Shown here piece after piece: positions 5,916 to 29,914 of a DNA stretch of 33,196 nt. Both the position numbers and the translations under genes were made by a program. The DNA comes from Comamonas sp. lk (GTDB lineage: Bacteria; Pseudomonadota; Gammaproteobacteria; Burkholderiales; Burkholderiaceae_C), in the NCBI GenBank assembly GCA_945865425.1, contig CAMBFN010000006.1, positions 1 through 33,196 of the forward strand, written 5' to 3'. Within the stretch, counting starts at the first letter, position 1. Each line of letters starts with the position of its first letter. The notes under the pieces were generated by a model. The model had not been told where the DNA came from, ran no database searches, and was given only the letters and a program-made list of their open reading frames with translations.

Positions 5916-5973
5916 TGCATTTAAAAACTCATCTTTGGTCAGGCCGGCTAGCTTGCCCAGAACAGGAAATCTC

Positions 5974-8238
5974 ATGCCGTCTATCCGCCCTTTGTGCCTT
6001 GCTTTGCTGTGCGCCTGTGCCACCTCTTTTGCGGTGCAGGCCCAAACGGTCAAAGCCGGCGCTGGCGCTTACACCCTGTCCCCCAAGGCGGCCGACCAGG
6101 CGGTGCCGCCCGCGCTTTACCGCACGCCGGCCATGCTCAAGCGCGCTGCGCCTAGCAACCAGTGGTATTCGGCCCTCGTCTATAGCGCCAAGCCCGAGGT
6201 TTTGTTTGCCCATCCCTTAACTATTTTGCCCAGCAGTGCGGGCATCGAGTTTTCGTTGCCCAGCAAAACCGTGGTGCCTACCGAGCGGCGCGATGTGGAA
6301 ATCCACTACCCCCACCAAGACGGTTTGCTGCTTTCGCCCACCGGCGTTGCCTTAGAGCGCCCCAAGTTAGCCAATGCCAGTGACTGGGCTATCGACATTG
6401 CTTGGGGCCCTAACGATGCCGCCATGACGGCCACCGTGGCGCATGGCAGCCCATTTGTATCGCTGCAAATCCCCAAAGGTAATGTGCGCCTGCAATTGCC
6501 ATTTGCTGGCACCCGCGTGCCACATGCAGACGCACGGGTATTGGCATTGCGCCTCAAAGGCAAGTCTTATGCATTGTTCGGCCCCAGCGGCGTGCGCTGG
6601 GAACAAGTCTCAGGCACCGAATGGATAGGTCACTTGCCCGAAGGCAAAGGCTATGCGTCAGCCGCTGCGCTGCCCGACGACAGCGCCGCCACCTTGGACT
6701 TGTTCACTCGCCACGCTTATGCGTTTTTGCAGGACACCCGGGTGGACTGGCAGTTCGACGAAGCCGCCAGCCGGGTACGCAGCACTTTTGTGGCAACAGC
6801 GCGCAACATGGAAGGGCCCGATGTGCCGCCGCTGCTGGGTTTGTTCCCCCACCAGTGGCACAACAACCGCGCCTTGCAAGGCAAGCTCGGCCCTGCGTTT
6901 GAAACTCTGCGCGGGTCTATCAAGCTGCTGGCCGCCAAGCAATTTGAGCTAACGCGCACCTACAACGGCTTCGTGCCTTTTTGGCCTGGTCTGCCCGAGC
7001 AAACCCGCAGCGCCGAATTGCGCGACCTGATGAAAACGGATGTGCGCAACGCCAGGCGCATGATGCTGGAAATAGGCGTCGGTCCTTACTGGCAAGGCAA
7101 AGGATTGCAGCGCATCTCTAAGCTGATGGATGTGGTCGAACAACAAGGCGACTTGGAGGCGCGCGACCAATTGCTCAAGCATATGAAAACACGCATCGAG
7201 CAATGGTTTTCCGGCAAGGACAGTAAAACCTATTTTCACTACGACAAAGCGCAAGGCACCGTTGCTTCCTACCCCGAGGAATATTTTGCGGTCGAGCAAA
7301 TGAACGACCACCATTTTCACTACGGCTACTGGATACGCACCATGGCCGAAATCGCGCTGCGCGACCCGCAATGGGCGTCCAAAGCGCAGTGGGGCGGCAT
7401 GGTGGACTTGCTCATCGCCGACATCGCCACCCCACGTCGGGGAGCAGCGGACTTCCCTTTTGTGCGCAACTTTGACCCCTACGAAGGCCACTCCTGGGCA
7501 TCGGGCATCGGCTTGGGGCCTTTTGGCAATAACCAAGAGTCGTCCTCCGAGGCGATCAACGCCTGGGCAGGCCTCATTTTGTGGGCCGAAGTCACCGGCG
7601 ACAAAGCATTGCGTGACCTGGGCATCTACCTCTACACCTCCGAGATCGAGGCCATTAACTACTACTGGTTTGACATCCACCACCTGGTCTTTCCGCCCGA
7701 ATACAAAAACGTGGAAACCAGCATGCTGTTTGGTGGCAAGTACGCGCACAACACCTGGTGGATTGACGAGCCGCGCCAAATTAAAGGCATCAATCTGCTG
7801 CCCATCACCACTGCGTCCACCTACCTGGGGCGCGATGGGGCCTTTGTCAAACGCAGCCTGGCCACGCTCAAACCCGAAGCCGAAGTCTATGCCGCGCGTG
7901 GCAAAGTCGCTAAGCCCATAGACATCTGGCAAGACCTGTTTGCCAAGTACATGGCCACCGCCGACCCGCAGGCGGCATTGGCCATGTGGGACCGCTGGGG
8001 CTCGTTTGAGCTGGGCGATACCCGTAGCCACGCGCTGCACTGGATGCTCAGCCTGCAAAATATGGGCACGCCCGACTTTGAGACCACCGCCAACACCACG
8101 CTGTACAGCGTGTTCCAACGCGCAGACGGCAGCAAAACCTACCTTGCCTACAACCCAGGCGCGCAGCCTTTGACGGTGTTGTTTAGCGATGGCAAAAGCC
8201 TGCAGGTGGCGCCGCGTGCGCTGAGCCGATCCAACTGA
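5974..8238 (+). CDS. GH81 endo-beta-1,3-glucanase, secreted
   Basis: This 754-aa enzyme starts at the ATG at 5974, preceded by AGGA and giving a good signal peptide (LALLCACATSFAVQAQ). An upstream TTG at 5935 would put a poor leader before it. The GH81 hallmarks are clear: NDHHFHYGYW with Asp445, then DPYEGHSWASG, and NQESSSEA with Glu522 and Glu526, the positions expected for the acid and base. GH81 enzymes are inverting endo-beta-1,3-glucanases active on laminarin, curdlan and similar polymers. The cleaved-type signal peptide and lack of a lipobox suggest a periplasmic or secreted protein. It heads the rightward arm, controlled from O2, and is followed 22 bp later by the GH16 gene. It probably works with GH16 and GH17 as complementary cutters of the backbone. 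Confidence 0.93.
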   Translation: MPSIRPLCLALLCACATSFAVQAQTVKAGAGAYTLSPKAADQAVPPALYRTPAMLKRAAPSNQWYSALVYSAKPEVLFAHPLTILPSSAGIEFSLPSKTVVPTERRDVEIHYPHQDGLLLSPTGVALERPKLANASDWAIDIAWGPNDAAMTATVAHGSPFVSLQIPKGNVRLQLPFAGTRVPHADARVLALRLKGKSYALFGPSGVRWEQVSGTEWIGHLPEGKGYASAAALPDDSAATLDLFTRHAYAFLQDTRVDWQFDEAASRVRSTFVATARNMEGPDVPPLLGLFPHQWHNNRALQGKLGPAFETLRGSIKLLAAKQFELTRTYNGFVPFWPGLPEQTRSAELRDLMKTDVRNARRMMLEIGVGPYWQGKGLQRISKLMDVVEQQGDLEARDQLLKHMKTRIEQWFSGKDSKTYFHYDKAQGTVASYPEEYFAVEQMNDHHFHYGYWIRTMAEIALRDPQWASKAQWGGMVDLLIADIATPRRGAADFPFVRNFDPYEGHSWASGIGLGPFGNNQESSSEAINAWAGLILWAEVTGDKALRDLGIYLYTSEIEAINYYWFDIHHLVFPPEYKNVETSMLFGGKYAHNTWWIDEPRQIKGINLLPITTASTYLGRDGAFVKRSLATLKPEAEVYAARGKVAKPIDIWQDLFAKYMATADPQAALAMWDRWGSFELGDTRSHALHWMLSLQNMGTPDFETTANTTLYSVFQRADGSKTYLAYNPGAQPLTVLFSDGKSLQVAPRALSRSN

Positions 8239-8260
8239 GCACTGCCGATTGGAAAATTCA

Positions 8261-9961
8261 ATGCAGATGCACAACTTGACCATTCATAAATTAGGGGCGG
8301 CACTGGCCGTGCTTGTGGCCAGCGTGTTGGCAGCGTGTGGGGGCGCAGCAGACTCAACAAAGGACACACTCCCGCCCACCTTAGTTATTTCGTCTCTTGC
8401 CACTAGCGAGACGGCTCGCGGCCCGCTTACCTTGCTCTTCACTTTCAGCGAGGATGTGGGCAGCAGCTTTTCCATTGAAAGCATTTTTGCAAGCGGGGGC
8501 ACCGTTGACACCTTTATCAAGCAAGATGCCACGCACTACAAGGTGCAGCTAAGCCCGCCCTCCAATGCCAAGGGCGCTGCCTCGGTCAGCGTACCTGCCA
8601 GCCGCTACAAAGACCTCTCCAATAACTGGAACACGGCCGCTGCCGCACTACCCATCAACTATGACACCACGCCGGAGCTTACAGCCACTTCCGGCAACAC
8701 CGGCTCCTGCGCCAGCAGCAGCACATTGACCTGCCTGGACATGGAGCCCGGTGCCACCACCGCCCTCGCGCCTTTCGGCCGCCTGGTCGCTTCCTTTGCC
8801 GCAGACCCCTCCAACCCACAAAACCGGGTGGTGCAACTGGTCAAAAACATTGGCAGTGAGGTATGGGCTGGTGCTACGCTGGGCGCGTCCGGCACCTTAA
8901 AGGTAAGCCCCGTCACCATGGGCGCCAACAGGGTATTAACGCTGCGGGTCTATGCGCCTGCAGCGGGCGAAAAGTTCATGCTCAAGCTAGAAAACAAAGC
9001 CAGCAACAACACCGTCTTCGTTAGCGCAGAAGCGAAAACCACCAAGGCAGGCGCCTGGGAAACCCTTAGCTTTGACTTTGATAGCCCCACGGAAGGCACG
9101 AGTTACAACTTCAAAACCACGTACGACATGGTGAGCGTCTTTCCGCATTACGGCCAGCCGGTATCGGGCACGACCACCTTTTATATCGACGAACTGAAGC
9201 TCAAAACCGAAGACCGCTTAGCCGGCTGGGGCCTGGTGTGGTCGGACGAGTTTGCTTACACGGGCTTGCCGGACCCGGCCAAGTGGGGCTATGACACCGA
9301 ATTCAACAAACGCTGGTGGCACAACGGAGAACTGCAGTACTACGCTAACGCACGCACGCAAAACACAATGGTGAGCGATGGCACCCTCAAAATCATCGCC
9401 AAAAAAGAGACACTCTCCGCAGCCGACTCAGGGGGGCAAAAGTACACATCGGCCCGCCTTATTACCCGCGACAAGGCCAAGGGGACATGGACCTATGGAT
9501 TTTTTGAGATCAGGGCCAAAACCCCGTGTGGCATGGGCACCTGGCCCGCGATCTGGCTCTTGGGCATTCCGGACGATCAATGGCCCAAGTACGGCGAGAT
9601 CGACATCATGGAGCAAAAGGGCTTTGGCGCCGCCGATAAAAGGGAGGTGTCGGCCTATTTGCACCATGCCGGCGGCGACCCAGGCAACCTGACCTCGCTG
9701 GCTGACGCGTGCACCAGCTTTCACAACTACCAGTTAACTTGGACCCCCGAAAAGATCGTGATCGCGGTGGATGACTTCAAGTACTTCGAGTACACCAACC
9801 CAAAGGATGGCAACTTCGCCAACTGGCCCTACAGCGGGCCCCAGTACCTCATCCTCAATGTGGCCATGGGTGGTGCTCTAGGCGGCTCAATACCGGCAAG
9901 CTTTGTGTCCGACCAGATGGAAGTGGACTATGTGCGCGTCTACCAAAGGCAAGCTAACTGA
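8261..9961 (+). CDS. GH16 laminarinase (endo-beta-1,3-glucanase) lipoprotein
   Basis: The start chosen is ATG 8261 with GGAAAA upstream, giving 566 aa; an earlier in-frame TTG (8249) overlaps that ribosome site. A lipobox VLAA-Cys26 indicates a lipoprotein. Next come a bacterial Ig-like domain (about 30-133, with the TFSEDV motif), a beta-sandwich binding module (about 145-325, ending FYIDELKLK), and the GH16 jelly roll (about 330-565). The catalytic motif GEIDIMEQ holds nucleophile Glu446, Asp448 and acid/base Glu451, the laminarinase-type spacing. GTWPAIWLLG and the end VDYVRVYQR are also typical. It is an endo-acting beta-1,3(1,3;1,4)-glucanase displayed on the envelope, in the same arm as GH81. 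Confidence 0.93.
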   Translation: MQMHNLTIHKLGAALAVLVASVLAACGGAADSTKDTLPPTLVISSLATSETARGPLTLLFTFSEDVGSSFSIESIFASGGTVDTFIKQDATHYKVQLSPPSNAKGAASVSVPASRYKDLSNNWNTAAAALPINYDTTPELTATSGNTGSCASSSTLTCLDMEPGATTALAPFGRLVASFAADPSNPQNRVVQLVKNIGSEVWAGATLGASGTLKVSPVTMGANRVLTLRVYAPAAGEKFMLKLENKASNNTVFVSAEAKTTKAGAWETLSFDFDSPTEGTSYNFKTTYDMVSVFPHYGQPVSGTTTFYIDELKLKTEDRLAGWGLVWSDEFAYTGLPDPAKWGYDTEFNKRWWHNGELQYYANARTQNTMVSDGTLKIIAKKETLSAADSGGQKYTSARLITRDKAKGTWTYGFFEIRAKTPCGMGTWPAIWLLGIPDDQWPKYGEIDIMEQKGFGAADKREVSAYLHHAGGDPGNLTSLADACTSFHNYQLTWTPEKIVIAVDDFKYFEYTNPKDGNFANWPYSGPQYLILNVAMGGALGGSIPASFVSDQMEVDYVRVYQRQAN

Positions 9962-10031
9962 TCACCAGGCGCCGTAGGCACTAGGTGAAAACACTGACCT
10001 CCTTACTAGGGAAATCCCTTATGGCGAGCTA

Positions 10032-10060
10032 TTGCATTCCCTGTCAACAAACCTTAACAT
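10032..10060 (+). promoter_or_regulatory. Candidate sigma-70 promoter of the binding-module lipoprotein
   Basis: TTGCAT (10032-10037) and TAACAT (10055-10060) are separated by 17 bp and lie immediately before the operator at 10065. A start near 10067 would fall within the operator, the standard repressor geometry. The hexamers are only moderate matches, so the position of the operator is the main support. Confidence 0.4.
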
Positions 10061-10064
10061 CCTA

Positions 10065-10091
10065 TGAAAGCGCTTTCAGAAATCGCTTTCT
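10065..10091. promoter_or_regulatory. LacI/GalR-type operator O3 with an adjacent imperfect copy
   Basis: TGAAAGCGCTTTCA (10065-10078) matches the 14-bp core of O1 and O2 exactly. Directly adjoining is AGAAATCGCTTTCT (10078-10091), whose inner 12 bp differ from the operator by one base. This suggests a tandem or decayed second site. It gives the third gene of the rightward arm its own regulated promoter in the 182-bp gap after the GH16 gene. Confidence 0.75.
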
Positions 10092-10143
10092 TTTGTTCAA
10101 TTATTTAATTTTCATCACCCAGATCCAGTCAGGAGTGCTAACC

Positions 10144-12027
10144 ATGAAACGTCTTGCAAAACTATCCACACTCTTGGCTGGCGCCTTGGTGGCAGCCCTC
10201 ACCCTGAGCGCCTGTGGCGGCGCGGACCCCGCTGACACCGTGGCCCCGACGGTCGAGCTGACGGACAGTGTGACGGATGCCACGGCCACCGGGCCGGTCA
10301 CCTTCACCTTCACCTTTAGTGAAGAAGTGAAAGGTTTCACAGCCGAAGACGTGACGGTGACAGGAGGTGATAAGGCCTCAACAGTAACCGCGGGCAGCAC
10401 GAATAAGGTTTACACCTTGGTTGTCACGCCAACGGCGAACACCACAGGGACCATCAGCGTTTCTATCGATCAGGGCAAATTCACGGATGTGTCCAATAAT
10501 CCAAACGCTGCTGTACCGGCTGTGACGCAGGCTTACAACACGGCGCCCGTTAGTTCTGCGCTGACTTTTGAGCAGGGTGGACGCGGCGCATCGTTTACTT
10601 GGAGTACGTTTGAAAATGGCGCCAATCCTGGGGTGGAAATTGTGGCGAATCCGGCTTCTGGCGGGGTAAACACATCTGCTAAGGTGGCGAAGTTTACGTC
10701 GCTGAAAATAGGCCAAGCGTGGGCGGGATTCGAAAGCAAACATGGCGCCGACTTTGGTGCTATGACTTTAAGCATGTCTAATGCAGTCGTAAAAATCATG
10801 GTTTACAAACCAGTGATCAGCAACGTTGGCATCAAATTTGCCACGGCATCCGGTGGCTCAACGGGTGAAATAAAGGTGGCCAATACCAAAATCAACCAAT
10901 GGGAAGAGCTGACATTTGACTTCTCTGGTGTCATCGGTGGCGTAAATGACAGCATTGATCAAATTATCTTGTTCCCTGACTTCGGTGTGAGGGATCAGGA
11001 CAACGTGTCTTATGTTGACAACATCACGTTCTCTGCCAAAGAGGCAAGCGCTCCGGTCGCGCCCACTACTGCGGCGCCCACACCTACTGCTGCTGCTTCC
11101 AACGTGATCGCCCTTTTCAGTAATGCCTATACCAACAAGACCGTAGATACATGGCGCACCAGTTGGTCGGCGGCAACGTTAACTGAAATAAAAATTTCTG
11201 CAGACGATGTCAAAAAATACAGTGGACTTGATTTTGTAGGTATTGAGGCGATGGGCGCAAACGCAATCGATGCCACCCAGATGACGCATGTTAACTTCGA
11301 CGTTTGGACCCCCAATGCAACGACGGTCAGGCTCAAGCTGGTTGACTTTGGTTCTCCGCAGTCGGAGTTCGAAGTCGCTGGCGTGCCCACAGTTGGCCAG
11401 TGGACCACTGTAAAAATTCCACTCGCAGATTTTACCGGCCTTAAGGCGCGAGCAAACCTGTCCCAATTCATTTTCTCGGCTTTACCTACAGGGGCAGCTA
11501 CTGTTTTCTTGGACAACATTTACTTTAGCAAGGAATCAACGCCGTTGGCACCGACAACAGCAGCGCCTACGCCTACTAAAGCATCGGGCGACGTCATATC
11601 GCTTTTTAGCAACGCCTACACCAACAAGACTATTGACACTTGGCGCACGAGTTGGTCAGCTGCCACATTAACTGAGATGAAAATTGCTGATGATGACGTC
11701 AAAAAATACAGTGGACTTGATTTTGTAGGTATTGAGGCGATGGGCGCAAACGCAATCGATGCCACCCAGATGACGCATGTTAGTTTCGACGTTTGGACCT
11801 CGAATGCGACGACTGTCAGGCTCAAACTGGTTAACTTCATTGGTTCTGGGAATTCGGAGTTCGAAGTCGCCAAAACGCCAACTGCTGGCACATGGAACAC
11901 GATAAAAATTCCACTGGCAGACTTTACTGGCCTTACGGCGCGAGCAAACTTGTCCCAGTTCATCTTCTCGGCCTTGCCGACAGGGACGGCTACGGTCTTT
12001 ATTGACAACCTGTATTTCAGTAAGTAA
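10144..12027 (+). CDS. Multi-module glycan-binding lipoprotein without catalytic domain
   Basis: The start is ATG 10144 with AGGAG upstream; earlier in-frame starts would place operator O3 inside the gene. The 627-aa product has a lipobox TLSA-Cys24 and a bacterial Ig-like domain (about 29-130) similar to that of the GH16 protein. A beta-sandwich module follows (about 135-297, ending VSYVDNITFS), then two tandem copies of another module (321-463 and 484-627). These begin VIALFSNAYTNK or VISLFSNAYTNK and end in LDNIYFSK or IDNLYFSK. Short TTAAPTPT linkers precede each copy. No catalytic motif is present. Location, lipidation and module content suggest it captures beta-glucan at the surface, functionally like the SGBP/SusD-type proteins of Bacteroidota. 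The tandem module resembles ones I associate with Bacteroidota glucanases, so domain transfer is possible. Confidence 0.82.
   Translation: MKRLAKLSTLLAGALVAALTLSACGGADPADTVAPTVELTDSVTDATATGPVTFTFTFSEEVKGFTAEDVTVTGGDKASTVTAGSTNKVYTLVVTPTANTTGTISVSIDQGKFTDVSNNPNAAVPAVTQAYNTAPVSSALTFEQGGRGASFTWSTFENGANPGVEIVANPASGGVNTSAKVAKFTSLKIGQAWAGFESKHGADFGAMTLSMSNAVVKIMVYKPVISNVGIKFATASGGSTGEIKVANTKINQWEELTFDFSGVIGGVNDSIDQIILFPDFGVRDQDNVSYVDNITFSAKEASAPVAPTTAAPTPTAAASNVIALFSNAYTNKTVDTWRTSWSAATLTEIKISADDVKKYSGLDFVGIEAMGANAIDATQMTHVNFDVWTPNATTVRLKLVDFGSPQSEFEVAGVPTVGQWTTVKIPLADFTGLKARANLSQFIFSALPTGAATVFLDNIYFSKESTPLAPTTAAPTPTKASGDVISLFSNAYTNKTIDTWRTSWSAATLTEMKIADDDVKKYSGLDFVGIEAMGANAIDATQMTHVSFDVWTSNATTVRLKLVNFIGSGNSEFEVAKTPTAGTWNTIKIPLADFTGLTARANLSQFIFSALPTGTATVFIDNLYFSK
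11209..11293 (+). repeat. 85-bp direct repeat, copy 1 (within tandem binding modules)
   Basis: These 85 bases recur without any mismatch at 11698-11782, 489 bp (163 codons) downstream. The sequence on both sides within the same module copies has diverged at synonymous and nonsynonymous sites. It encodes the YSGLDFVGIEAMGANAID segment. Confidence 0.9.
11698..11782 (+). repeat. 85-bp direct repeat, copy 2
   Basis: Identical to 11209-11293. The sharp boundaries between identical and diverged sequence suggest gene conversion or recombination between the two module copies. Confidence 0.9.
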
Positions 12028-12115: not shown

Positions 12116-13786
12116 ATGGATACAGAAATGCAATCTACCCGTATGAAATACTTGTTGGGCGGCGGGCTGGCTTTGATGATTGCCGCCTGCGGCGGCGGCG
12201 CAGACGAATCGCCTGTGCTCAATCCAGCGCCAAGCTCTGGTGTGGCGGTGGATGGTTATCTCAGGTCGGCCACGGCCACTTGCGATGCCAATGGCGATGG
12301 CTTGGTGACCACCGGCGAGGTCTCCGTGACCACCAATGCGGTAGGCGTTTACACCTTCCCTGCGGGTTGCAATGCGGGCGTGATCGTCACGGGGGGTATC
12401 GATATTGATACCAACACCGAGTTCAAGGGCGTGCTCAGAGCGCCTGTGGGTGCGACAGCGGCCACACCGCTGACCACCTTGATAGTGGCGGGTGCGACGC
12501 CGAGCCAGTTGAAATCTTCGCTGGGCCTGGATGGCAGCTTGGACTTGCACCTCCTTGACCCCGCTGCCAAAAATACAGCGGGCAACTTGGTGAATATGGA
12601 TGCCATGAAGAAATCGCTTGCTGTGCAGCAATTGACGCAAAAAGTAACCGAGGTTTTTGCAGGTTTGGCAAGTGGCACGGGCAGCGCGACATTGCAGCCG
12701 ATATACCGGGAAGTGACGAGTGCCTTTGCCGCTTCTTTGGCAAGCAAAACGCTGATGGTAAACGCGGGCTCGATGGACATGGCGGTAGTGAAAGATTTGG
12801 TCAAGGCTGCCACCGAGAAGGTAGCCCAGTCCACGACTGTGACCAGCGCGGTTAAATCGGCGGCAGCGACCTTGAATGCGGACACCTTGGCGCAGGTGAT
12901 ATCCGGTGGCCTCAAAGTGCAGGTCGAAGCCATTCTTGGCGCGACAGAAAGCAAACTCAAGGACGAGACCAAGAAGCAGCAAGCTGACGAGACCATTAGC
13001 GCCTTCGTGGTGTTAAAGAAATCACAGCTTACAGCGGCGCCCTCTACAGCCACGGCCGTAATGGGTGAGAACCTAGGCAATGCCGTGAAAGATGCCACGT
13101 CCACCGCACCGCCTAGTAATTACTTGGCGCTGGTCGAAGATGCGATTAGCTTGGTGGCCTCCAATGTCACCACCAAGTACACCAAATCGGCCTTCACCTC
13201 CGACGCAGGTATCAGCGTTAAATGGCCAGTGTCATCGACTGCTGTAATCCAGTTCACATTCAATGAAACCGGTACCTTTGTGTGGGCCGACGGGCAAACG
13301 GTAAGTGCGGCACTCAAAATCTCCGAAACCGGTGGCGGTCTGGGCCAGGTTGTGGCCTATATAGACAAGGTTGGCGTGAAGAAAGGCGCTTCGGGCATGG
13401 AGTTTTTGGTTCCCAGTGATGCCACTGCCACGGTGTACGGGGTGTCCACCGACGGAAAGAAAAAAGCGGTGATTGATTTCAGCCCAGGCGTGCGCGGGGT
13501 CAAAAATACCCTGAGCACATCATTACCCAACAACGTGTTGCTAGGTGATGTGATCAACTACACGATCAATAATGTCAGTAATGATTTCACCAACATTACT
13601 ACCCTGCGGGGCAAGTACAAGGTGTCCCTGGTCGTCAGCAATATGCCTTTGCGGCAAGTAGACGGTACCAAGTTCACTACAGTGGGTATCGATGTGCCGG
13701 TTAAGTTGGGCGCAGGTGGCGTGACTACAGAAACCAAGTCCGTGGTCGGCGCCGGGTTGGAAGGCTACATCACGCTCACTGACTGA
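12116..13786 (+). CDS. Lipoprotein A1 of duplicated lipoprotein/barrel cassette; unknown function
   Basis: The product is up to 556 aa; ATG 12116 has little ribosome site, and ATG 12128 (with GGA 7 bp upstream) is an equally good start. A signal sequence with lipobox IAA-Cys25 indicates a lipoprotein. Residues 57-68, DANGDGLVTTGE, fit the 12-residue EF-hand calcium loop (D-x-N-x-D-G...E), flanked by Cys56 and Cys85. An Ala/Ser/Thr/Lys-rich, mainly helical region (about 140-340) precedes a beta-rich C-terminal domain starting at NYLALVEDAIS. The protein is homologous end to end with the product of 15046-16968. I do not recognise a named family. It is followed 10 bp later by a barrel gene, suggesting a partner pair at the outer membrane. 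Location beside glucanases hints at polysaccharide handling, but function is unknown. Confidence 0.75.
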   Translation: MDTEMQSTRMKYLLGGGLALMIAACGGGADESPVLNPAPSSGVAVDGYLRSATATCDANGDGLVTTGEVSVTTNAVGVYTFPAGCNAGVIVTGGIDIDTNTEFKGVLRAPVGATAATPLTTLIVAGATPSQLKSSLGLDGSLDLHLLDPAAKNTAGNLVNMDAMKKSLAVQQLTQKVTEVFAGLASGTGSATLQPIYREVTSAFAASLASKTLMVNAGSMDMAVVKDLVKAATEKVAQSTTVTSAVKSAAATLNADTLAQVISGGLKVQVEAILGATESKLKDETKKQQADETISAFVVLKKSQLTAAPSTATAVMGENLGNAVKDATSTAPPSNYLALVEDAISLVASNVTTKYTKSAFTSDAGISVKWPVSSTAVIQFTFNETGTFVWADGQTVSAALKISETGGGLGQVVAYIDKVGVKKGASGMEFLVPSDATATVYGVSTDGKKKAVIDFSPGVRGVKNTLSTSLPNNVLLGDVINYTINNVSNDFTNITTLRGKYKVSLVVSNMPLRQVDGTKFTTVGIDVPVKLGAGGVTTETKSVVGAGLEGYITLTD

Positions 13787-13796
13787 TTGGGCAGTC

Positions 13797-14939
13797 GTGC
13801 AGTCAAGCCCGCCCCATCCTGAATGGGTTTTCGCTCGGATCGGGAAGGCGTGCCGACTGATTGCTAGGTGGATAGGCGCTGCATCGGTGGCGGCGCCTGT
13901 AGCCGCCGCTCCCTTGGACGGTTTGTTGACCGCAATGCCCGAACGGCTTGCGCCATCGGGTTTTGTGGAGTTTGCCACCGACCATATGAACGACAGCTTG
14001 GATGTGTTCAGGATTCGGGAGGGTGATCCTCTCATCGCAGGTACGAAAGCGGGTGATTACCGCGGCCAACATGTCAATGCCGGCTGGAATGCCAGCCAGG
14101 GTTTGTGGTTGTCCGGTGGTCTGTGGCAACGCAATGTGAGCGACGCTGCCGATACCTATCTGTATAACAGCTGGCAGTTGGCTGCGCAGTATCGATTCAT
14201 CGAGGCGCAGGAGCACCGACCGGCACTGGCACTGCGCTTGTCGAGCTGGGGTAATTGGGCTGGCGCCACAGAGTCCTCTACGCCAGTGAATGTCCCCGGT
14301 GCCATCTTGAACACCGTCAAGGTAACTAAGCCTTCCGACCAGCAACTGCAAGCTGATTTGATTGCGACTTGGGACCTGAGTCCCACTTTGGAGCTCAGCG
14401 GTCTACTTAGTGCTGGCAGTAATCGCTTGTCCTATGGTGCTTTGTCAGCGACCACCACGCGCAATGGCTGCAATTACCAGCTCAGTTTCACAGGCAATGA
14501 CATTTTTGGCACTTTGATTCCCCCTTGCGCGGCTAAAGGCGGCATCATTCAGCAGTTTTTTGATAGCAGCGGTGACTATGGCGTGGACGTTGCAAATGAA
14601 ATCGCATGGCGCGGCACTTTCATGCAGTTTGGCATCAACAGTACTTGGCAAAATGGGCCCTGGACCTTAAAGGGCGCTTACCTATTTCATGCTGTGCGTC
14701 GAGAGGCAGTGGATGCGATATTGTCCGCCCGCGGCAAGCCCGCCTACACCCAAAATCAGAACATAATAGTAGAGACGGATTACCGATTGCATCGAAATGT
14801 GAGTTTGTTTTCGCGTGCGCAATTCAATAGCAGTTTGTTTTCCAATGACATTCCGGTCACCTACAACAGCAGTACCGCTGCCCGATTTCGCAGCAAATAT
14901 TCTCTCTTTTCGATCGGTTTGCGCGCCGATTTCTTTTGA
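13797..14939 (+). CDS. Predicted outer-membrane beta-barrel B1, partner of lipoprotein A1
   Basis: The 380-aa frame starts at GTG 13797; no ATG is available before the signal peptide and no good ribosome site is seen, so translational coupling to A1 is likely. The signal segment ends around VAAPVAAA, leaving mature APLDGLL. Many amphipathic strands such as GLWLSGGLW and ALALRLSSWGNW follow, and the end KYSLFSIGLRADFF has the terminal Phe of BAM substrates. Cys225 and Cys244 flank a predicted loop and are conserved in the paralogue at 16978-18060. Both copies also share FFDSSGxYGVDV and VTYNSS or VMYNSS near the end. I do not recognise the family. It could be a porin, or an exporter or anchor for the neighbouring lipoprotein. 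Confidence 0.75.
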   Translation: MQSSPPHPEWVFARIGKACRLIARWIGAASVAAPVAAAPLDGLLTAMPERLAPSGFVEFATDHMNDSLDVFRIREGDPLIAGTKAGDYRGQHVNAGWNASQGLWLSGGLWQRNVSDAADTYLYNSWQLAAQYRFIEAQEHRPALALRLSSWGNWAGATESSTPVNVPGAILNTVKVTKPSDQQLQADLIATWDLSPTLELSGLLSAGSNRLSYGALSATTTRNGCNYQLSFTGNDIFGTLIPPCAAKGGIIQQFFDSSGDYGVDVANEIAWRGTFMQFGINSTWQNGPWTLKGAYLFHAVRREAVDAILSARGKPAYTQNQNIIVETDYRLHRNVSLFSRAQFNSSLFSNDIPVTYNSSTAARFRSKYSLFSIGLRADFF

Positions 14940-14975
14940 TGTCGCGCAGTAATTTATGGCAATCAACTGGTTTGA

Positions 14976-15005
14976 TTGACAACTTGAGCTAGTCCTAGTT
15001 ACGCT
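14976..15005 (+). promoter_or_regulatory. Candidate sigma-70 promoter of the second cassette
   Basis: TTGACA (14976-14981) is a perfect -35 consensus. TACGCT (15000-15005) follows at 18 bp as a partial -10. The site lies 41 bp before the ATG of the second lipoprotein, in the 106-bp gap after barrel B1. If real, the second cassette can be expressed independently. No copy of the TGAAAGCGCTTTCA operator is present here. Confidence 0.4.
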
Positions 15006-15045
15006 AGGGTCGTTGGAACTGAAAATTAAAAAGGAGCAATCCAAA

Positions 15046-16968
15046 ATGTTTAACTTGCGATATGTACCCGCTATTTGTCTGGTGCTGTTTTCAGCTTGTG
15101 GCGGTGGTGGTGGTGGTGGCACGACCCCAACGCCAACGCCAACACCAACGTCTATCACTGCAATAGATGGCTACCTCTCTGGTTCCAAGGTGCTGTGCGA
15201 CGCCAACAATAATGGCCTAGAAGACACTGGCGAAATTACGGTTCAAACGGATGAAAAGGGCTTGGCCACGTTTGCAGCTGGTTGCAAATTTCCCGTCGTA
15301 GTCACCGGCGGCACAAACACCGATACGAAACTAGAATTTAAAGGCCAGCTCAAGAGCCCTGCAAACGCTTTAGTTGCCACGCCTATTACAACGCTGATTG
15401 CCAGCGGCATGTCCGAGGCCGATGTAAAGACAGCTTTGGGCCTCCCGTCCAGCGTGTCATTGCTGAACACGGACCCTTTAAAGAAAAATACGGACGGTGT
15501 GACTGACAACCAAGAGTTGCTGAAAAAGACTTTGGCTGTTCAGCAAATGATGCAACAAACCTCCGAGGCTGTGCGTAGTGCAGGAGTCGGTACGACCTTG
15601 TCTGCCGCTGCGGGCCAGGCACTCTACGCCGAAGTTGCCAACTCCTTTGTGAAGGCGCTGACGGATGGTGGCACGGTGAAAAAACTAATGTCCACAGGGG
15701 ACAGCGGTACGGCCGACACCACGATTATGAAATCCATGGTCAGGGAGGCGGTGGTTCAAGTGAAAGCTTCTACCAATACAGAGCTAGCGTCCGTTAAAGC
15801 TGCAACGGCAGGTTTGAATGCGGACTCCGTGGCCTTGGTTGCGGCTGCCAGTATTCAGATTCAAGCACAAGCCATTCTGAAAGCTGATCTAAGTACTGCA
15901 AGCAATGCGACGGCGTTTATCGCTTTTGTGAAAGCAAGTCAGAGCGACACTACCTTGGCTACCACGATGTCAGAAAGCAAAACTGTTTTGCAGAAGGCTC
16001 CGGATGCAGCTACCGAACAATTGAGTACTTCAATGAGTACTGCAGTGTCCAAGGTGGTAAGCACAAGCGGCGGCACAAGCGGTGGCACAAGCGGCGGTAC
16101 AAGCGGCGGTACAAGCGGTGGCACAAGTGATAGCACAAGTGGCGGCACAAGTGATAGCACAAGTGGCGGCACAAGCGGTGGCACAAGCGGTGGCACAAGC
16201 GGTGGCACAAGCGGTGGAACAAGTGGCGGCACAAGCGGTGGTACAAGTGGCGGCACAAGCGGCAGCACGTCGCCTAACAACTATCTCGCCTTAGTGGGCG
16301 ACTCCATCAGCATTGATGCAGGCGAGGCACTGACGATGGCCGCATTCCAGTCAGATGCCGGTATCAAGCTGACTTGGCCACTGCCTTACACATCCGCTAT
16401 CAAGCTGACGCTCGCAAGCGTGGGCACTTATGTTTTGCCGGAAAAGCTTAAAGTCACGGCCGCCATTTCGATTGAAGAAACCGGCACAGGCAAGGCCAAG
16501 GTCATGGCTTATGTTGACAACGTATCGGTCACCAAAACCTCTACCGGTGATTTGTCCATTGCTATTGCAGACGCTCCCAATGCCCAGGTATATATGCTTT
16601 CCACGGACCAGAAAAAGTTCAAGTTAGTCAATGTTGCTTCTGATGTAAAAAATATTGTCAACACCTTGGGCGTGAGCAGCGGCCTGACGGGATCGTCTTT
16701 GAAAAAATGGAGTATTCAAATCGGGGACGTGGCGGATTACGCCATCACCCAGTCGACGTCCGCCGGGTTCAGTGGCATAACTAACCTGACCGGTAAATTC
16801 AAAGTGTCGGTAGTGGTTACGGATCTGCCTTTACGCAAAGCCAATGGTGACGAACTCACGTCCATGACACTATCGGTGCCAAGCGAGCTGAACACTGACG
16901 GTACGATCAAAAATTCCAAGGTTGTCGCTGGAAAAGGCTTAACAGGGTTTATTACCTTTACCAAGTAA
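15046..16968 (+). CDS. Lipoprotein A2 of duplicated cassette, with Thr-Ser-Gly-Gly repeat linker
   Basis: ATG 15046 has AAGGAG nine bases upstream, giving 640 aa; an upstream TTG (15013) lacks this. The lipobox is LFSA-Cys18, followed by a Gly run and a Thr-Pro repeat (PTPTPTPT). Residues 51-62, DANNNGLEDTGE, form an EF-hand-like loop bracketed by Cys50 and Cys79, as in A1. The helical middle and the C-terminal domain beginning NNYLALVGDSIS also align with A1. Between them lies a linker of 17 TSGG-type units (residues 340-407) that A1 lacks. Function is unknown; it is a surface-lipoprotein candidate paired with the barrel gene 9 bp downstream. The linker could extend the C-terminal domain away from the membrane. 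Confidence 0.8.
   Translation: MFNLRYVPAICLVLFSACGGGGGGGTTPTPTPTPTSITAIDGYLSGSKVLCDANNNGLEDTGEITVQTDEKGLATFAAGCKFPVVVTGGTNTDTKLEFKGQLKSPANALVATPITTLIASGMSEADVKTALGLPSSVSLLNTDPLKKNTDGVTDNQELLKKTLAVQQMMQQTSEAVRSAGVGTTLSAAAGQALYAEVANSFVKALTDGGTVKKLMSTGDSGTADTTIMKSMVREAVVQVKASTNTELASVKAATAGLNADSVALVAAASIQIQAQAILKADLSTASNATAFIAFVKASQSDTTLATTMSESKTVLQKAPDAATEQLSTSMSTAVSKVVSTSGGTSGGTSGGTSGGTSGGTSDSTSGGTSDSTSGGTSGGTSGGTSGGTSGGTSGGTSGGTSGGTSGSTSPNNYLALVGDSISIDAGEALTMAAFQSDAGIKLTWPLPYTSAIKLTLASVGTYVLPEKLKVTAAISIEETGTGKAKVMAYVDNVSVTKTSTGDLSIAIADAPNAQVYMLSTDQKKFKLVNVASDVKNIVNTLGVSSGLTGSSLKKWSIQIGDVADYAITQSTSAGFSGITNLTGKFKVSVVVTDLPLRKANGDELTSMTLSVPSELNTDGTIKNSKVVAGKGLTGFITFTK
15100..15150 (+). repeat. In-frame microsatellites near the A2 lipoprotein N-terminus
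   Basis: Seven GGN codons (15100-15120, five of them GGT in a row) directly follow the lipid-anchored Cys codon, then CCAACG-type hexamers (to 15150) encode Thr-Pro repeats. Both are multiples of three, so slippage would change tether length without a frameshift. Confidence 0.7.
16063..16266 (+). repeat. 12-bp tandem repeat, 17 units (TSGG linker)
   Basis: Seventeen 12-bp units of the type ACAAGCGGTGGC run in frame, encoding TSGG, with two TSDS variants (units 6 and 8) and a final TSGS. Third positions vary between GGC and GGT and between AGC and AGT, so the array is not freshly amplified throughout. The corresponding site in the A1 paralogue has no repeat. Confidence 0.93.
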
Positions 16969-16977
16969 TAGCCTGGC

Positions 16978-18060
16978 ATGACTTGGTCCGGGTTGGCGGG
17001 GGGCATCCTGCTTTTAATGGTTTGGTGCCTGCCCGCATCATCGGCACCTTTGGATGGTTTGCTACGTGCAAGTGGCGATTACCCGGATGCCGACTACTAC
17101 ATCGAAGTGGGTGGCGACGTGATGAGCGGGCCTCTCGATTTTTGGCGCGTGCGCGCCAATGACAAGCGCCTAGCCGGCACGCTGGCAGGAGATTATCAGG
17201 GCGGCCATATCTCTGGCGGCATGCAGTTGTTGCCTGGCTTGTGGCTTTCCGGCGCCTATTGGGACCGCACCATTCGGGACGTGTCCGACCCCTACCACTA
17301 CAACAGCGGTGCAGTTGCAATCCAATACCGTTTCTTTGATGGTCAGGAAGCTTTGCCTGCCCTTGCACTTCGGTTTTCTTCCTGGGGCAATTGGTCGGAT
17401 GCAGTGGCCTCTAGTACCCCGGTCAAAGTCAATAACGTAGTCCTTGATACGGTCAAAATTACCCTCCCCGGGGACTCCCAGCTGCAAGCAGATCTGATTG
17501 GCACCTGGAACTTGAGCCCTAGTACCAGTGTGACGCTTCTTGCCAGCGGCGGCACTGTGCAATTGGGTTATGGCGCCTTGACCGCCACGACGACACTGGA
17601 CGCCTGTAGCACCGAATTGGTTTTTAACCGGAACTCAATTTTCGGCCAATGCGTTCAGAAAGGGGTGATTAAATCGCAGTTTTTTGATAGCAGCGGGGAG
17701 TATGGCGTCGACGTGGTCAAAGAATTGGCCTGGCGCGGTGTTTTCGCACAGCTTGGCGCTAATGTGCACTGGAGATATGACAATGTCACTTTGCGCGCTG
17801 CCTATTTGTACTACAGCATCCAGCGCGATGCGGTGGACCAGATACTCGCCGCACGCGGCAAGAAGCAGTATGTAGTCAATGAAGTCATGACACTCGACGC
17901 TGGTTACCAATTACACAAATACCTGTCGGTCTACGGGCGCGGCGAATTCATGACCCATTTGTTTTTCAACGATGTACCGGTGATGTACAACAGCAGTAGC
18001 TCGTCTAATTTCGCAAGAAAGTACTCGCTCTTTTCCTTCGGTTTGCGCAGCAGCTTTTGA
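16978..18060 (+). CDS. Predicted outer-membrane beta-barrel B2, partner of lipoprotein A2
   Basis: The 360-aa protein starts at ATG 16978, nine bases after the A2 stop. The signal peptide is hydrophobic (GGILLLMVWCLPASSA), leaving mature APLDGLL, identical to B1. The product aligns with B1 along its whole length, sharing AGDYxGxH, RxSSWGNW, LQADLI, FFDSSGxYGVDV and the end KYSLFSFGLRSSF. Cys210 and Cys225 match the B1 pair but with a shorter loop between them. The C-terminal Phe and alternating pattern support an outer-membrane barrel. Function is unknown; pairing with A2 mirrors the A1-B1 pairing. An insertion-like repeat element lies just past the stop. Confidence 0.77.
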   Translation: MTWSGLAGGILLLMVWCLPASSAPLDGLLRASGDYPDADYYIEVGGDVMSGPLDFWRVRANDKRLAGTLAGDYQGGHISGGMQLLPGLWLSGAYWDRTIRDVSDPYHYNSGAVAIQYRFFDGQEALPALALRFSSWGNWSDAVASSTPVKVNNVVLDTVKITLPGDSQLQADLIGTWNLSPSTSVTLLASGGTVQLGYGALTATTTLDACSTELVFNRNSIFGQCVQKGVIKSQFFDSSGEYGVDVVKELAWRGVFAQLGANVHWRYDNVTLRAAYLYYSIQRDAVDQILAARGKKQYVVNEVMTLDAGYQLHKYLSVYGRGEFMTHLFFNDVPVMYNSSSSSNFARKYSLFSFGLRSSF

Positions 18061-18294: not shown

Positions 18295-19107
18295 TCAGCC
18301 TTCAAATTCGTCGCCCAATTCTTTGGCGCGTTGTTGCGCGGCCCGCATCGCGGCGATAAAAGAAGCCTTCACGCCGTCAGCCTCCATGGACGTCAGCGCC
18401 GCAAAAGTGGTACCGCCTTTGGACGTAACGCGTTGGCGCAGCGTTTCGGGTCCATCGCTGGAGGCGCCGGCCAATGCGGTGGCGCCGCTAAACGTGGCCA
18501 GCGCCAACTGGTAGGCCTGCGCGGGCGATAAGCCCATGGCGGCGCCCGCATCACGCATAGCCTCCAGAAAATAAAACACGTAGGCCGGGCCGGAGCCTGA
18601 CAGCGCAGTGACCGCGTCGATATGGGCCTCATCGCTGAGCCAAATAAATTGGCCGGTGCACTCCATGAGTTGCGCTACGCGCGCCTTGTCTGCATCACTC
18701 ACGCCACTACGCGCAAACAGGCCGCTAATGCCTTGGCCGATCAGTGCCGGAGTGTTGGGCATGGCACGTACGATGCGTTCGCTGTGCAGCCATTGCGCCA
18801 GGGTATCGCTGCGAATGCCTGCGGCTACGCTCAGGTGCAAGGCCTGGCTGGTATAGCTTTGGGTGGCCGCTGAAGCGTCTTTAAAAGTTTGCGGCTTTAT
18901 GGCCCAGACCACCACATCGCTCTCTTGCAAAAACGCGCCGGGCGCAGCTTGCGCCTGTACGCCGTAGCGCGCCAGCAAATCGTCACGGGCTGCGGCCAAG
19001 GGTTCAACTACGGCGATGTCCGCTGCTGCGCAGCCGCGCTTGAGCAGGCCACCGATGATCGCGCCGGCCATTTGGCCGCCGCCTATGAATGCAATGGATG
19101 GGGTCAT
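18295..19107 (-). CDS. proC: Pyrroline-5-carboxylate reductase
   Basis: The 270-aa cytoplasmic enzyme performs the last step of proline synthesis, reducing 1-pyrroline-5-carboxylate with NAD(P)H. The N-terminal Rossmann motif is IAFIGGGQMAGAIIGGL (residues 5-21). RAMPNTPALIGQG (114-126) and the family signature ALSGSGPAYVFYFLEAM (168-184) are complete, and length is normal for the family. It lies 47 bp downstream of glpK on the same strand and may be read from the same transcript, although proline synthesis has no direct link to glycerol use. Confidence 0.96.
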   Translation of the reverse strand: MTPSIAFIGGGQMAGAIIGGLLKRGCAAADIAVVEPLAAARDDLLARYGVQAQAAPGAFLQESDVVVWAIKPQTFKDASAATQSYTSQALHLSVAAGIRSDTLAQWLHSERIVRAMPNTPALIGQGISGLFARSGVSDADKARVAQLMECTGQFIWLSDEAHIDAVTALSGSGPAYVFYFLEAMRDAGAAMGLSPAQAYQLALATFSGATALAGASSDGPETLRQRVTSKGGTTFAALTSMEADGVKASFIAAMRAAQQRAKELGDEFEG

Positions 19108-19154
19108 GGAGTTTTCAATTGCAGTTGCGCTTAGCGCTTCAGTCTAACTGCCAC

Positions 19155-20648
19155 TTAAACCGCCGTAGTTTGCCGCACCGCATGTTCCCAGCGCTGCATT
19201 TGCGCTTGCGCTTGGGCGCGGCTGATTTGTGGCTCGAAACGGCGTTCGGCTTGCCACAATTGGCTCAGCGCCGCGGTGTCCGGGTACAGGCCGGTGGACA
19301 AGCCGGCCAGGTAGGCGGCGCCCAAGGCGGTGGTCTCGGTCACCTGCGGGCGCAGCACGCTGATGCCCAGCAAATCGGCCTGAAACTGCATCAGTAAATC
19401 ATTGACGCAGGCGCCGCCGTCCACGCGCAGTTCGGTCACGGCGGCAACCCCGGCTTGTTGCGCATCAAGCGCCATGGCTTGCAAGAGTGCGGCGCTTTGG
19501 AAGGCAATGCTTTCTAAGGCAGCGCGTGCGATATGGGCCACGGTGCTGCCGCGTGTCAGGCCGGTCATGGTGCCGCGCGCTTCGGGGTTCCAGTAGGGTG
19601 CGCCCAGGCCCGTAAAGGCCGGTACCAGCATCACACCGCCGCTGTCAGGCACGCTTTGCGCCAGGGCTTGCACCTCGGCGCTGCTGCGGATAGCGCCCAG
19701 CCCATCGCGCAGCCATTGCACCACCGCGCCGCCCACAAACACGCTGCCTTCTAAGGCGAATTCGGGCCGGGTACCAGGCTGTGCTGCGCTGGTGGTGATC
19801 AGGCCATTGGTCGAGGTCTGGAATTGTGTGCCCGTGTGCATCAGCATGAAGCAGCCGGTGCCATAGGTGTTTTTGGCCATACCGGCGCTAAAGCAAGCCT
19901 GCCCGAACAAAGCGCTTTGCTGGTCGCCGGCCATGCCGCCTACGGGAATCGCGTGGCCCAGCAGCCTCGGCTCGATATCGCCAAAATGCGCCGCCGAGGG
20001 CAGAACTTGCGGCATGAGTCCCTCGGGGATGTTGAGCGCTTGCAGCAGCTCCGGGTCCCAGCTGTTGCTGTGCACATTAAACAGCATGGTGCGTGCTGCA
20101 TTGCTCACATCGGTGGCGTGTACACGGCCGCTTGTCAATTGCCACAAGAGCCAGCTGTCCACGGTGCCAAAGGCCAGCGCGCCGTGTGCGGCCTGCGCGC
20201 GGGCATCAGGCACGTTGTCCAAAATCCATTGCAGCTTAGTGCCCGAAAAATAGGCATCCACCAGTAAGCCGGTTTTTTGGCGAATGGTTGGTGCCATGCC
20301 GCGCTCACGCAAGGCTGCGCAGGCGGGCTCGGCGCGCCGGTCCTGCCAGACGATGGCTTGGTAGATGGGCTGGCCGGTCTTGCGGTTCCAGACTACGGTT
20401 GTCTCGCGTTGGTTGGTAATGCCGATGGCATGCACTTGCTGCGCACTGATGCCGGCTTTGGCCAGCGCATTGCGCGCGGTAGACAACTGGGTGCGCCAGA
20501 TTTCCAGCGGGTCGTGCTCTACCCAGCCGGGCTGGGGGTAAAACTGGGTCAGCTCCTCCTGCGCCATGGCCACGATGCGGCCTTGCGCATCAAACACGAT
20601 GCTGCGGGAGCTGGAGGTGCCTTGGTCAAGAGCGAGCAGGTAGGTCAT
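19155..20648 (-). CDS. glpK: Glycerol kinase
   Basis: This 497-aa FGGY-family kinase converts glycerol to glycerol-3-phosphate with ATP in the cytoplasm. The N-terminal [15 protein letters not shown] (6-20) is the phosphate-binding motif of the family, and [29 protein letters not shown] and [17 protein letters not shown] are characteristic of GlpK. Length is full. It follows glpR by 44 bp on the same strand and faces away from the glycerol ABC operon. Its product feeds GlpD (27752-29341). No glpF facilitator gene is nearby, which fits active uptake by the ABC system. Confidence 0.97.
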
Positions 20649-20692
20649 GGGGTCTGGGCGTCCAAAGTTGGCGGAGAAGCGATTGACGGTAC

Positions 20693-21460
20693 TCAGTCAC
20701 CCGCCAGCGTAAATCGTACCTGTGCTTCGGCCATCAAGTCCATAAAAGGCTCAGGCGGTATGGCATCCGAAAACAGGCGGTCGATGCTGGAGAGTTGCGC
20801 TACTTCGACCATCGCGGCGCGGTTGAATTTGCTGGCATCTGCCGCTAGCCAGACTTCGCGCGCTTGGGAAATAATGGTTTGAGACACCTTCACCTCCCGG
20901 TAGTCAAAGTCTCGCAGCGAGCCATCTGATTCGATGGCCGAGATGCCGATCAAGCCGATGTCCACTTTGAACTGGCGGATGAAGTCCACCGCCGCTTCTC
21001 CCACAATGCCCTGGTCTCGCCCGCGGACCACGCCGCCCACCACAATAACTTCGCTTTGCGAGTTGGCGCTGAGGATGGCGGCCACATTGAGGTTGTTGGT
21101 AATCACCCGCAACCCTTGGTGCTTGGTCAGCGCCCGGGCGATGGCCTCGGTGGTGGTGCCAATATTGAGTAGCAACGAGCATCCATTGGGCACGGCATCG
21201 GCCACCGCACGTGCAATGCGGGCTTTGCCCTGGGCATTGAGGATTTCGCGTTGCGGATAGGCCAGGTTTTCTACGGTGGAGCCGGGCACGCGCACGCCAC
21301 CATGAAAGCGCGCCAGCAGGCCCTCGTCGGCCAGGCGCTGGACGTCGCGGCGCACGGTTTGCAGCGTCACTTGCAGCGTATCAGCCAGGCGCTCCACCGT
21401 GACCGAGCCTTGCGCCCGCACTACGCTTAAGAGCTTGATTTGTCGTGGATTAGGGTTCAT
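20693..21460 (-). CDS. glpR: DeoR-family transcriptional repressor of the glp locus
   Basis: The 255-aa protein has a DeoR-type winged helix-turn-helix at residues 16-56 ([22 protein letters not shown], then GLLARFHGG). The rest is a sugar-phosphate-binding DeoRC domain with [11 protein letters not shown] and [16 protein letters not shown]. GlpR repressors respond to glycerol-3-phosphate. Its place between glpK and the divergent glpSTPQUV-glpD operon makes this role very likely. It probably binds TTCGAA sites in the 166-bp gap next to it, controlling both directions. Confidence 0.92.
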
Positions 21461-21507
21461 GCGTGGATTGTCCGAGCCTTGGGGAAAAATGACTTCTGCA
21501 CTTTAAA

Positions 21508-21591
21508 TCGAACCGAAAGGAATAGATTTAGGGTAAACACCTAGTTAAACCGAATAATTTCGAACAATAATTCTCACATTCGAATTAATGT
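21508..21591. promoter_or_regulatory. Candidate GlpR operator cluster between glpR and glpS
   Basis: The divergent gap holds CGAA tetramers at 21509, 21514, 21551, 21561 and 21581, with another at 21607. Two are hexameric palindromes TTCGAA (21559-21564 and 21579-21584) exactly 20 bp apart, on the same helix face. The second is flanked by ACATT and AATGT arms (21576-21591). DeoR-family regulators often use such TTCG/CGAA half-sites. Binding is inferred; promoters could not be placed confidently in this AT-rich stretch. Confidence 0.5.
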
Positions 21592-21626
21592 TGCGCTAAA
21601 TTGGTGCGAACGATCAAGGGTGTCAG

Positions 21627-22697
21627 ATGGACTTGAGTCTGCAAGCAGTAAGTAAAAAAGTGGGTGCGCAGCCCTGGCTGTATGCGCTGGACATGGATCT
21701 GCGCCCGGATGCAGTCACGGTCTTACTGGGCGCCACACAAGCGGGCAAAACCAGTTTGATGCGCATCATGGCTGGCCTGGATGTGCCCAGCACCGGGCGC
21801 GTAGTGGTGGACGATATTGATGTAGTCGGCGTGCCGGTACGCCAGCGTAATGTGTCCATGGTCTACCAGCAGTTCATCAATTACCCGTCCATGACGGTGT
21901 TTGACAATATCGCCTCGCCGCTCCATTTGCGCGGCGAAACCGGCGTGCGAGAGCGGGTGCATGGGCTGGCGGAAAAGCTGCATATTGAGATGTTTTTGGA
22001 GCGTTACCCTTCAGAGTTATCAGGTGGCCAGCAGCAGCGAGTGGCGCTGGCGCGGGCGCTGGCCAAAGGCGCGCCTTTAATGTTGTTGGACGAGCCACTG
22101 GTCAATTTGGACTACAAGCTGCGCGAAGAGTTGCGCGACGAGCTCAGCGCTTTGTTCGCGGCGGGCAATTCCACCGTGGTCTATGCCACCACAGAGCCGG
22201 GCGAGGCTTTGTTATTGGGCGGTTACACCGCCGTGATGGACGCAGGGGAATTACTGCAATACGGCCCTACGGCGGAGGTGTTTCAGCGGCCCCGCTCGAT
22301 ACGGGTGGCGACCGCTTTTAGCGACCCGCCCATGAATCTCTTTCCCGCGCGGGTGCAGGACCAAGCGCTGGTCTTGGCTGACGCCAGCAGGGTCCCAATC
22401 GCAAGTGCCTTGGCAGGCGGCTCGGTCACGGCCGGTCTGCGTGCCAGCGCACTGCGTGTACAGGCACGTGAGGGTGATGTTGCGGTGCAGGCGAGCGTGG
22501 CACTGGCTGAAATTTCCGGCTCAGATACTTTTGTGCATCTGGATACCACCCTGGGCGCCATGGTCGCGCAGCTGGCCGGTGTGCATTACTTTGATCTGGG
22601 CGATGCCATGCCAGTGTATTTTCGGCCGCAAGATGTCTATGTGTTTGACAGCGCCGGTATCCTGGCCCTGGCCCCGACGCGCGAAGGGGTGCACTGA
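21627..22697 (+). CDS. glpS: Glycerol ABC importer ATPase GlpS (H-loop His missing)
   Basis: The 356-aa protein is one of two ATPases of the glycerol importer. It has Walker A GATQAGKT (35-42), an intact signature LSGGQ (131-135) and Walker B LMLLDE with Glu156. The switch histidine normally in THDQ is absent: the site reads YATTEPGEA, placing Thr at 189. A MalK-like C-terminal domain follows. ATG 21627 has AAGG upstream. It starts the rightward operon glpSTPQUV-glpD, whose order matches the glycerol transport operon described in Rhizobium. The H-loop change complements the signature change in GlpT, suggesting an asymmetric heterodimer. Confidence 0.9.
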   Translation: MDLSLQAVSKKVGAQPWLYALDMDLRPDAVTVLLGATQAGKTSLMRIMAGLDVPSTGRVVVDDIDVVGVPVRQRNVSMVYQQFINYPSMTVFDNIASPLHLRGETGVRERVHGLAEKLHIEMFLERYPSELSGGQQQRVALARALAKGAPLMLLDEPLVNLDYKLREELRDELSALFAAGNSTVVYATTEPGEALLLGGYTAVMDAGELLQYGPTAEVFQRPRSIRVATAFSDPPMNLFPARVQDQALVLADASRVPIASALAGGSVTAGLRASALRVQAREGDVAVQASVALAEISGSDTFVHLDTTLGAMVAQLAGVHYFDLGDAMPVYFRPQDVYVFDSAGILALAPTREGVH

Positions 22698-22698
22698 T

Positions 22699-25473: not shown

Positions 25474-25498
25474 AGCGCCATGCACAAGGAGAAGCGCA

Positions 25499-25807: not shown

Positions 25808-25895
25808 TTTGAGTGTGAAGGATCGGTTCCCTATTCCCCTGGAGCCGAAGCTGCCTTTGAAATTAGGGGGTTGTCATTAATCGAGGAGACATAGC

Positions 25896-27626: not shown

Positions 27627-27633
27627 GCCGCTG

Positions 27634-27686
27634 CGGGCCTAAGGCCCGTGCGTTTGAATGGCCGTTCGGCATCGTGCCGGGCGGCC
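27634..27686 (+). terminator. Two hairpins between glpV and glpD (attenuator or processing site)
   Basis: CGGGCC-TAA-GGCCCG (27634-27648) is a perfect stem. GGCCG...GGCA-tcg-TGCC...CGGCC (27660-27686) makes a second, interrupted stem. Neither is followed by a T-run. They may stabilise glpV mRNA or partly stop transcription before glpD. Confidence 0.4.
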
Positions 27687-27751
27687 ACCTCTCCGAATTT
27701 TTGGACGTGCACTTAGCCGGTGGGGGATGGCACGTCCCTACGTATTGATAT

Positions 27752-29905: not shown

Positions 29906-29914
29906 GGACAGGCT

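Follow-up and report, generated by a model that had tools for sequence, protein, structure and literature searches.

An unnamed lipoprotein and a predicted outer-membrane barrel encoded as a pair beside glucanase, type II secretion and exopolysaccharide genes in Pseudomonadota

Contig CAMBFN010000006.1 of a Comamonas metagenome-assembled genome (MAG; 2.12 Mb, 72.7% complete), analysed here over its whole length of 33,196 bases (the window), raises the question of why a locus with glucanase genes holds, twice in succession, a lipoprotein gene followed at once by a gene for a predicted outer-membrane barrel. We call the lipoproteins A and the barrels B. The four open reading frames (ORFs) lie on the same strand in the order A1-B1-A2-B2, with stop-to-start gaps of 10 bp (A1-B1) and 9 bp (A2-B2) within the pairs and a spacing of 73 bp between B1 and A2. 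The pairs and two sites within their lipoproteins are as follows, A1 and B1 being described from sequence and predicted models, and A2 and B2 from sequence.

12116-13786, + strand: A1, a 556-residue lipoprotein with an N-terminal beta module, a helical middle and a C-terminal beta domain, without the module inserted in relatives
13797-14939, + strand: B1, an outer-membrane barrel with 12 long strands predicted, an APLD motif and a loop hairpin with two Cys
15013-16968, + strand: A2, a 651-residue lipoprotein, paralogue of A1
16978-18060, + strand: B2, a barrel, paralogue of B1
13088-13111, + strand: the place in A1 (about residues 325-332) that is occupied in relatives by an inserted carbohydrate-binding-like or Ig-like module
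16048-16272, + strand: GGTS-repeat linker in A2, at the position equivalent to the inserted module of relatives

The true start of A2 may be an in-frame ATG at 15046 instead of the TTG at 15013. The ORFs confirm the equal layout of the two pairs reported in the initial annotation. Both barrels have the putative mature N-terminus APLDGLL after a signal-peptide-like start, and both lipoproteins have a lipobox-like stretch (LMIAAC in A1, LFSAC in A2) followed by poly-G. The two copies are homologous and clearly diverged, as had been claimed: A1 and A2 share 39% and 40% identity over two blocks (E 7e-53 and 3e-44) and 41% over the whole alignment, and B1 and B2 share 51% over 346 columns (E 4e-126). 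The description of A as an EF-loop lipoprotein holds for A1, which has the EF-like loop DANGDGLVTTGE, and in a weaker form for A2, but the loop does not occur in the other two members of a four-lipoprotein alignment and is thus not family-wide.

The predicted model of A1 has a predicted local distance difference test (pLDDT) score of 83.3 and a predicted template modelling (pTM) score of 0.69. That of B (pLDDT 84) has 12 long strands around a conserved, mostly polar lumen, with about 22 residues ahead of the first strand; the loop hairpin with its two Cys is retained in most B relatives. By its model, then, B is a barrel; the opposite outcome had been named in the initial annotation as fatal to its proposal. 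No Pfam or NCBIfam family model matches the core of A or B above cut-off, in agreement with the statement that no named system has this composition.

Both unnamed families recur as a pair well outside the window. A profile built from two barrels matched 4 of 399 genomes of the order, and one built from five barrels found 32 loci in GTDB genomes, spanning Rhodoferax-type Comamonadaceae, other betaproteobacterial MAGs, Gallionella, Oxalobacteraceae, a Hydrogenophilales MAG, Azohydromonas, many Cupriavidus and a Magnetococcales MAG. Two contigs appear under two labels each (genome G355 is locus L044, and G358 is L027). In a class-wide sample B was present in 7 of 369 genomes, namely the window's and six more, four of which have weak or partial matches. 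An A-type match, whole or partial, ends directly before B in 30 of the 32 barrel loci, some of these lipoproteins being cut by contig ends; in L027 the contig ends just before B. Profile comparison relates the upstream lipoproteins of L045 and L061 to the N-terminal part of A (E 4e-11 and 1.5e-12, respectively), the assignment in L066 is doubtful and its barrel match weak, and in L065 (2863-4624) the order is reversed, with the barrel first. The pairing of A and B is thus real and old. The co-occurrence survey that had been suggested finds the families together where tested, but second barrels in Cupriavidus occur as orphans. As a separate observation, in Azohydromonas only the C-terminal part of A precedes B in L028 (9330-9812), and A is split over three frames in L029 (7891-9794).

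The two proteins also have a shared history. Identity in the C-terminal part of A and identity in B correlate with r = 0.98 over 29 rows, a value to which clade structure contributes; together with the 30 of 32 loci, this gives good support to the earlier proposal that the two proteins work together. The A tree and the B tree agree: A1-B1 is sister to the sole pair seen in L015 (support 99/99 and 97/98), and A2-B2 falls within the same Comamonadaceae clade, outside the A1-B1/L015 group. A2 and B2 form long branches, and the trees do not resolve the deeper order in this clade. The barrel alignment comprises 30 barrels, of which 27 come from the 32 loci, two from the window and one from G314; the L046 barrel, which lies in two frames, was left out of it and of the B tree, as were the partial or split lipoproteins of L028 and L029 from the A tree and the 29-row comparison. 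Since the trees agree and the identities run parallel, the pairs moved or were duplicated as units. This part of the initial annotation stands, but the duplication seems to predate this genome: judging from the trees, it probably occurred before the window's line split from that of L015, or else one pair arrived by transfer. No further copy of A or B was found in the search of the window's 72.7% complete MAG. Other genomes do have a second barrel elsewhere, with parts of A alongside in G402, G423 and G425, and as orphans in Cupriavidus.

Which part of A goes with B could be judged from a search of the order with an A profile, scoring at most two candidates per genome. It matched 91 of 399 genomes, the weakest matches covering little beyond the signal peptide. 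Outside G000, G314 and G355 all matches end before profile position 400 and mostly cover the N-terminal module or the signal peptide; the long matches are confined to these three genomes, all of which have B, and the C-terminal domain of A is therefore the part that tracks B. In G358, where B lies at a contig end, no long A match was obtained. Directly before this domain lies an insertion site that accepts carbohydrate-binding-like modules in relatives, whose A proteins hold a module related by sequence comparison to the accessory region of the window's own GH16 enzyme. Glycan binding, proposed earlier as a theme of the system, is strengthened by this homology. Three further observations concern A. 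Its N-terminal module (profile positions about 10-300) is common to many other large lipoproteins and has no Pfam model above cut-off in the tables inspected. A lipoprotein of G358 (L098, 5537-7423) that is similar to A in the N-terminal part only lies about 0.7 kb after gspF. A 1066-residue A protein (L057, 8969-12166) has three stretches to which the C-terminal domain of A1 aligns.

On this basis, we consider that A-B probably handles polysaccharides at the cell surface, and our preferred reading, to which we give a probability of about 45%, is that the two genes encode a conserved outer-membrane module that deals with surface polysaccharide. In this module A would be exported to the cell surface by the type II secretion system, dock on B through its C-terminal domain and hold glycan at the mouth of the barrel, and B would pass short glycans or anchor the complex. 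From the features described above and from the gene neighbourhoods described next, we infer surface exposure and export route, contact between A and B, glycan binding by A and transport through B. In the window, the module would have been built into a glucan locus, with the two diverged pairs perhaps serving different glucan chains.

The window's other genes in the region of the pairs are these.

8249-9961, + strand: GH16 enzyme, part of whose accessory region (within residues about 141-321) resembles the module inserted in A of relatives
5935-8238, + strand: GH81
9985-12027, + strand: lipoprotein with Big_12, CBM_48 and CBM_11 matches above cut-off
4357-5724, - strand: 455-residue protein, signal-like at its start and matched by neither Pfam nor NCBIfam, retained as a locus gene in L015, L019 and L023
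2527-4332, - strand: GH17
1139-2482, - strand: GH30

Judged by its enzymes (GH81, GH16, GH17 and GH30), this is a beta-1,3-glucan locus, and the order GH81-GH16-Big_12 lipoprotein-A-B is retained in L015, L019 and L023 (phmmer with the window's proteins, and Pfam). A UgpC-type ABC ATPase gene is found beyond the glucanase genes upstream of the pairs.

In the closest relatives the pair is flanked by GH81/GH16 glucanase genes and by the gsp operon, which encodes type II secretion. Seven of the nine loci of this clade (L015, L016, L017, L018, L019, L022 and L023) have gspG and further gsp genes directly 3′ of B, the contig of L022 ending inside gspG; gsp genes do not follow B in L020, L021 or the window, whose genome carries them on contigs 17 and 20, away from the pair. 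The same arrangement, gspG directly after A-B, recurs in L061 and L062, from two genomes of one genus in another order, where B was present in 2 of 5 genomes. NCBIfam models identify GspG, GspL, GspD and GspE in L016, GspG and GspD in L023, and GspG and GspL in L061; the gsp calls at the remaining loci rest on similarity to these genes. GspD is above cut-off in 36 of the 39 B-bearing genomes, the three misses being MAGs, one with a fragmented GspD, against 46 of 120 genomes sampled from the order, a comparison whose p-values overstate the case, since relatedness links the 39 genomes and some of them belong to other orders. By our own grouping, GspD occurs in 13 of 14 lineages. The gsp operon next to the pair suggests the route by which A and the glucanases reach the surface.

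Elsewhere the neighbours are genes for exopolysaccharide. Four lineages have them no more than about 7 kb from B (Cupriavidus; G358; L029, L031 and L044; and L061). In C. pinatubonensis, the annotated record inspected, the pair is given as hypothetical proteins, next to genes annotated as an undecaprenyl-phosphate glucose phosphotransferase, WcaI, an acetyltransferase, glycosyltransferases, GH55, a polysaccharide pyruvyl transferase and an O-antigen polymerase. Of 29 genomes, 14 have a PF02397 sugar transferase no more than 7 kb from B, against 0.18 expected, although 13 of the 14 belong to one Cupriavidus-type lineage; the other is G358, where it is 0.2 kb from B. L029 has RfaH-like (below the NCBIfam cut-off) and TviB genes, L031 has TviB, and L044 has MarR_EPS, Wzy_C and glycosyltransferases, the TviB and MarR_EPS matches being above cut-off. 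Below cut-off are the KpsE-like and polysaccharide export proteins of L061 and the assignments in two weaker cases: in L066 a Wzb-like and then a Wzc-like gene directly follow B, and in L064 an XrtA/PEP-CTERM ATPase lies near a barrel at a contig end, with no A seen. Inspection by eye revealed neither a gsp operon nor an exopolysaccharide cluster in L024, L025, L026, L028, L030, L045, L063 and L065, apart from one glycosyltransferase in L030. The exopolysaccharide loci suggest that the pair also serves the cell's own polymers.

Two observations qualify the reading of A-B as a surface-polysaccharide module. GH81 and GH16 genes lie next to the pair in one Comamonadaceae clade only; the proposed link to glucanases holds there, but in several lineages outside it the neighbouring genes are for exopolysaccharide or type II secretion. 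Furthermore, three second barrels inspected in Cupriavidus (L058, 8098-9258; L059, 8808-10352; L060, 7925-8980, split in the search matches) have no A-type lipoprotein detected alongside, so B can also exist alone. A more specific form of the reading seems unlikely to us. In it A, exported by type II secretion, would catch glycan as a lid over B, a sugar channel of 12 strands; this unrecognized chassis would take up glucan fragments in one clade and hold or pass the cell's own exopolysaccharide elsewhere, and would be a counterpart of SusCD independent of TonB, common to uptake and surface-polymer loci.

The neighbourhoods could be taken to mean instead that B, with A, exports or anchors the cell's own polysaccharide in the manner of Wzp or Wzi, and that the glucanase locus borrowed it. 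This is possible but doubtful. The four lineages, the two weaker cases and the frequency of PF02397, dominated as it is by one lineage, all argue for it; the glucanase and ABC-transporter context of the window and the loci without a visible exopolysaccharide cluster argue against it, as does the size of the barrel, since B has 12 strands and Wzi and Wzp have 18, as stated in PMC9603273.

Alternatively, B could act as a translocon comparable to Slam, FapF or an autotransporter barrel and deliver A to the surface, where A would then act alone. We regard such a display role as quite unlikely: in some genomes the adjoining gsp operon already offers an export route, none of the 30 barrels has a Slam-type Pfam match, and orphan barrels exist. 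The fold does not decide the matter, because autotransporter, NanC and KdgM matches to B score closely. It is very improbable that A-B belongs to the type II secretion machine itself as an accessory, such as an outer-membrane assembly or docking factor, as gspG directly downstream in two distant groups and GspD in 13 of 14 lineages might suggest, since B is found in 4 of 399 genomes against 46 of 120 for GspD, so that the machine usually works without B, and the best GspD of Cupriavidus is not next to the pair.

Several known systems resemble the pair in part. KdgM and NanC share with B a 12-stranded barrel of equal geometry and a polar lumen, and the B model superimposes on 169 of 170 residues of KdgM at 1.7 Å (11% identity) and on 196 residues of NanC at 2.7 Å (8%). 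However, none of the 30 barrels matches the KdgM/NanC family profile in Pfam at E 0.1, and B differs in its additional loop hairpin, with two Cys in most members, and in its lipoprotein partner. SusC and SusD are likewise a glycan-linked barrel and lipoprotein encoded together, but SusC is TonB-dependent and has about 22 strands, against the 12 predicted for B, and no TonB-dependent receptor or SusD match from Pfam was found in 30 B and 21 A proteins. FapF, from the fap operon, is a 12-stranded barrel with a periplasmic plug. Slam has a TPR domain in front of its barrel, whereas B has no TPR part in the short segment before its own. MtrB is a much larger barrel, and A1 and A2, unlike MtrC and OmcA, contain zero CxxCH haem motifs. 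The likeness here is that of lipoproteins with an outer-membrane protein partner: according to PMC1974784, MtrC and OmcA of Shewanella are lipoproteins of the cell surface, most likely taken there by type II secretion, and MtrB is implicated in their placement. Wzi and Wzp, described in PMC9603273 as outer-membrane barrels encoded beside polysaccharide genes, resemble B in this gene context, but share no family model with it, and B also occurs with glucanase and type II secretion genes. Membership in SusCD, Slam, MtrB/C and Wzi/Wzp was rejected, a testable defining feature of each being absent. The pair thus belongs under none of these families, B having the fold of KdgM and NanC and failing their profile.

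Two families without names thereby prove to be close partners that recur in Pseudomonadota beside secretion and surface-polysaccharide genes. Their partnership points to a way in which glucan may be held at the surface of some proteobacteria. It also makes the A proteins candidates for lipoproteins that are exported by type II secretion and have a barrel of their own.

Two minor observations concern the remainder of the window. The 455-residue protein encoded at 4357-5724 (- strand) adjoins GH81 in L015, L019 and L023 and may be a further outer-membrane protein belonging to the glucan locus. Downstream of the pairs, from 18295 to 33176, the genes recognized by eye are ordinary: proC, glycerol kinase, a DeoR-type regulator, a glycerol-type ABC importer, glycerol-3-phosphate dehydrogenase and ribosomal protein genes.

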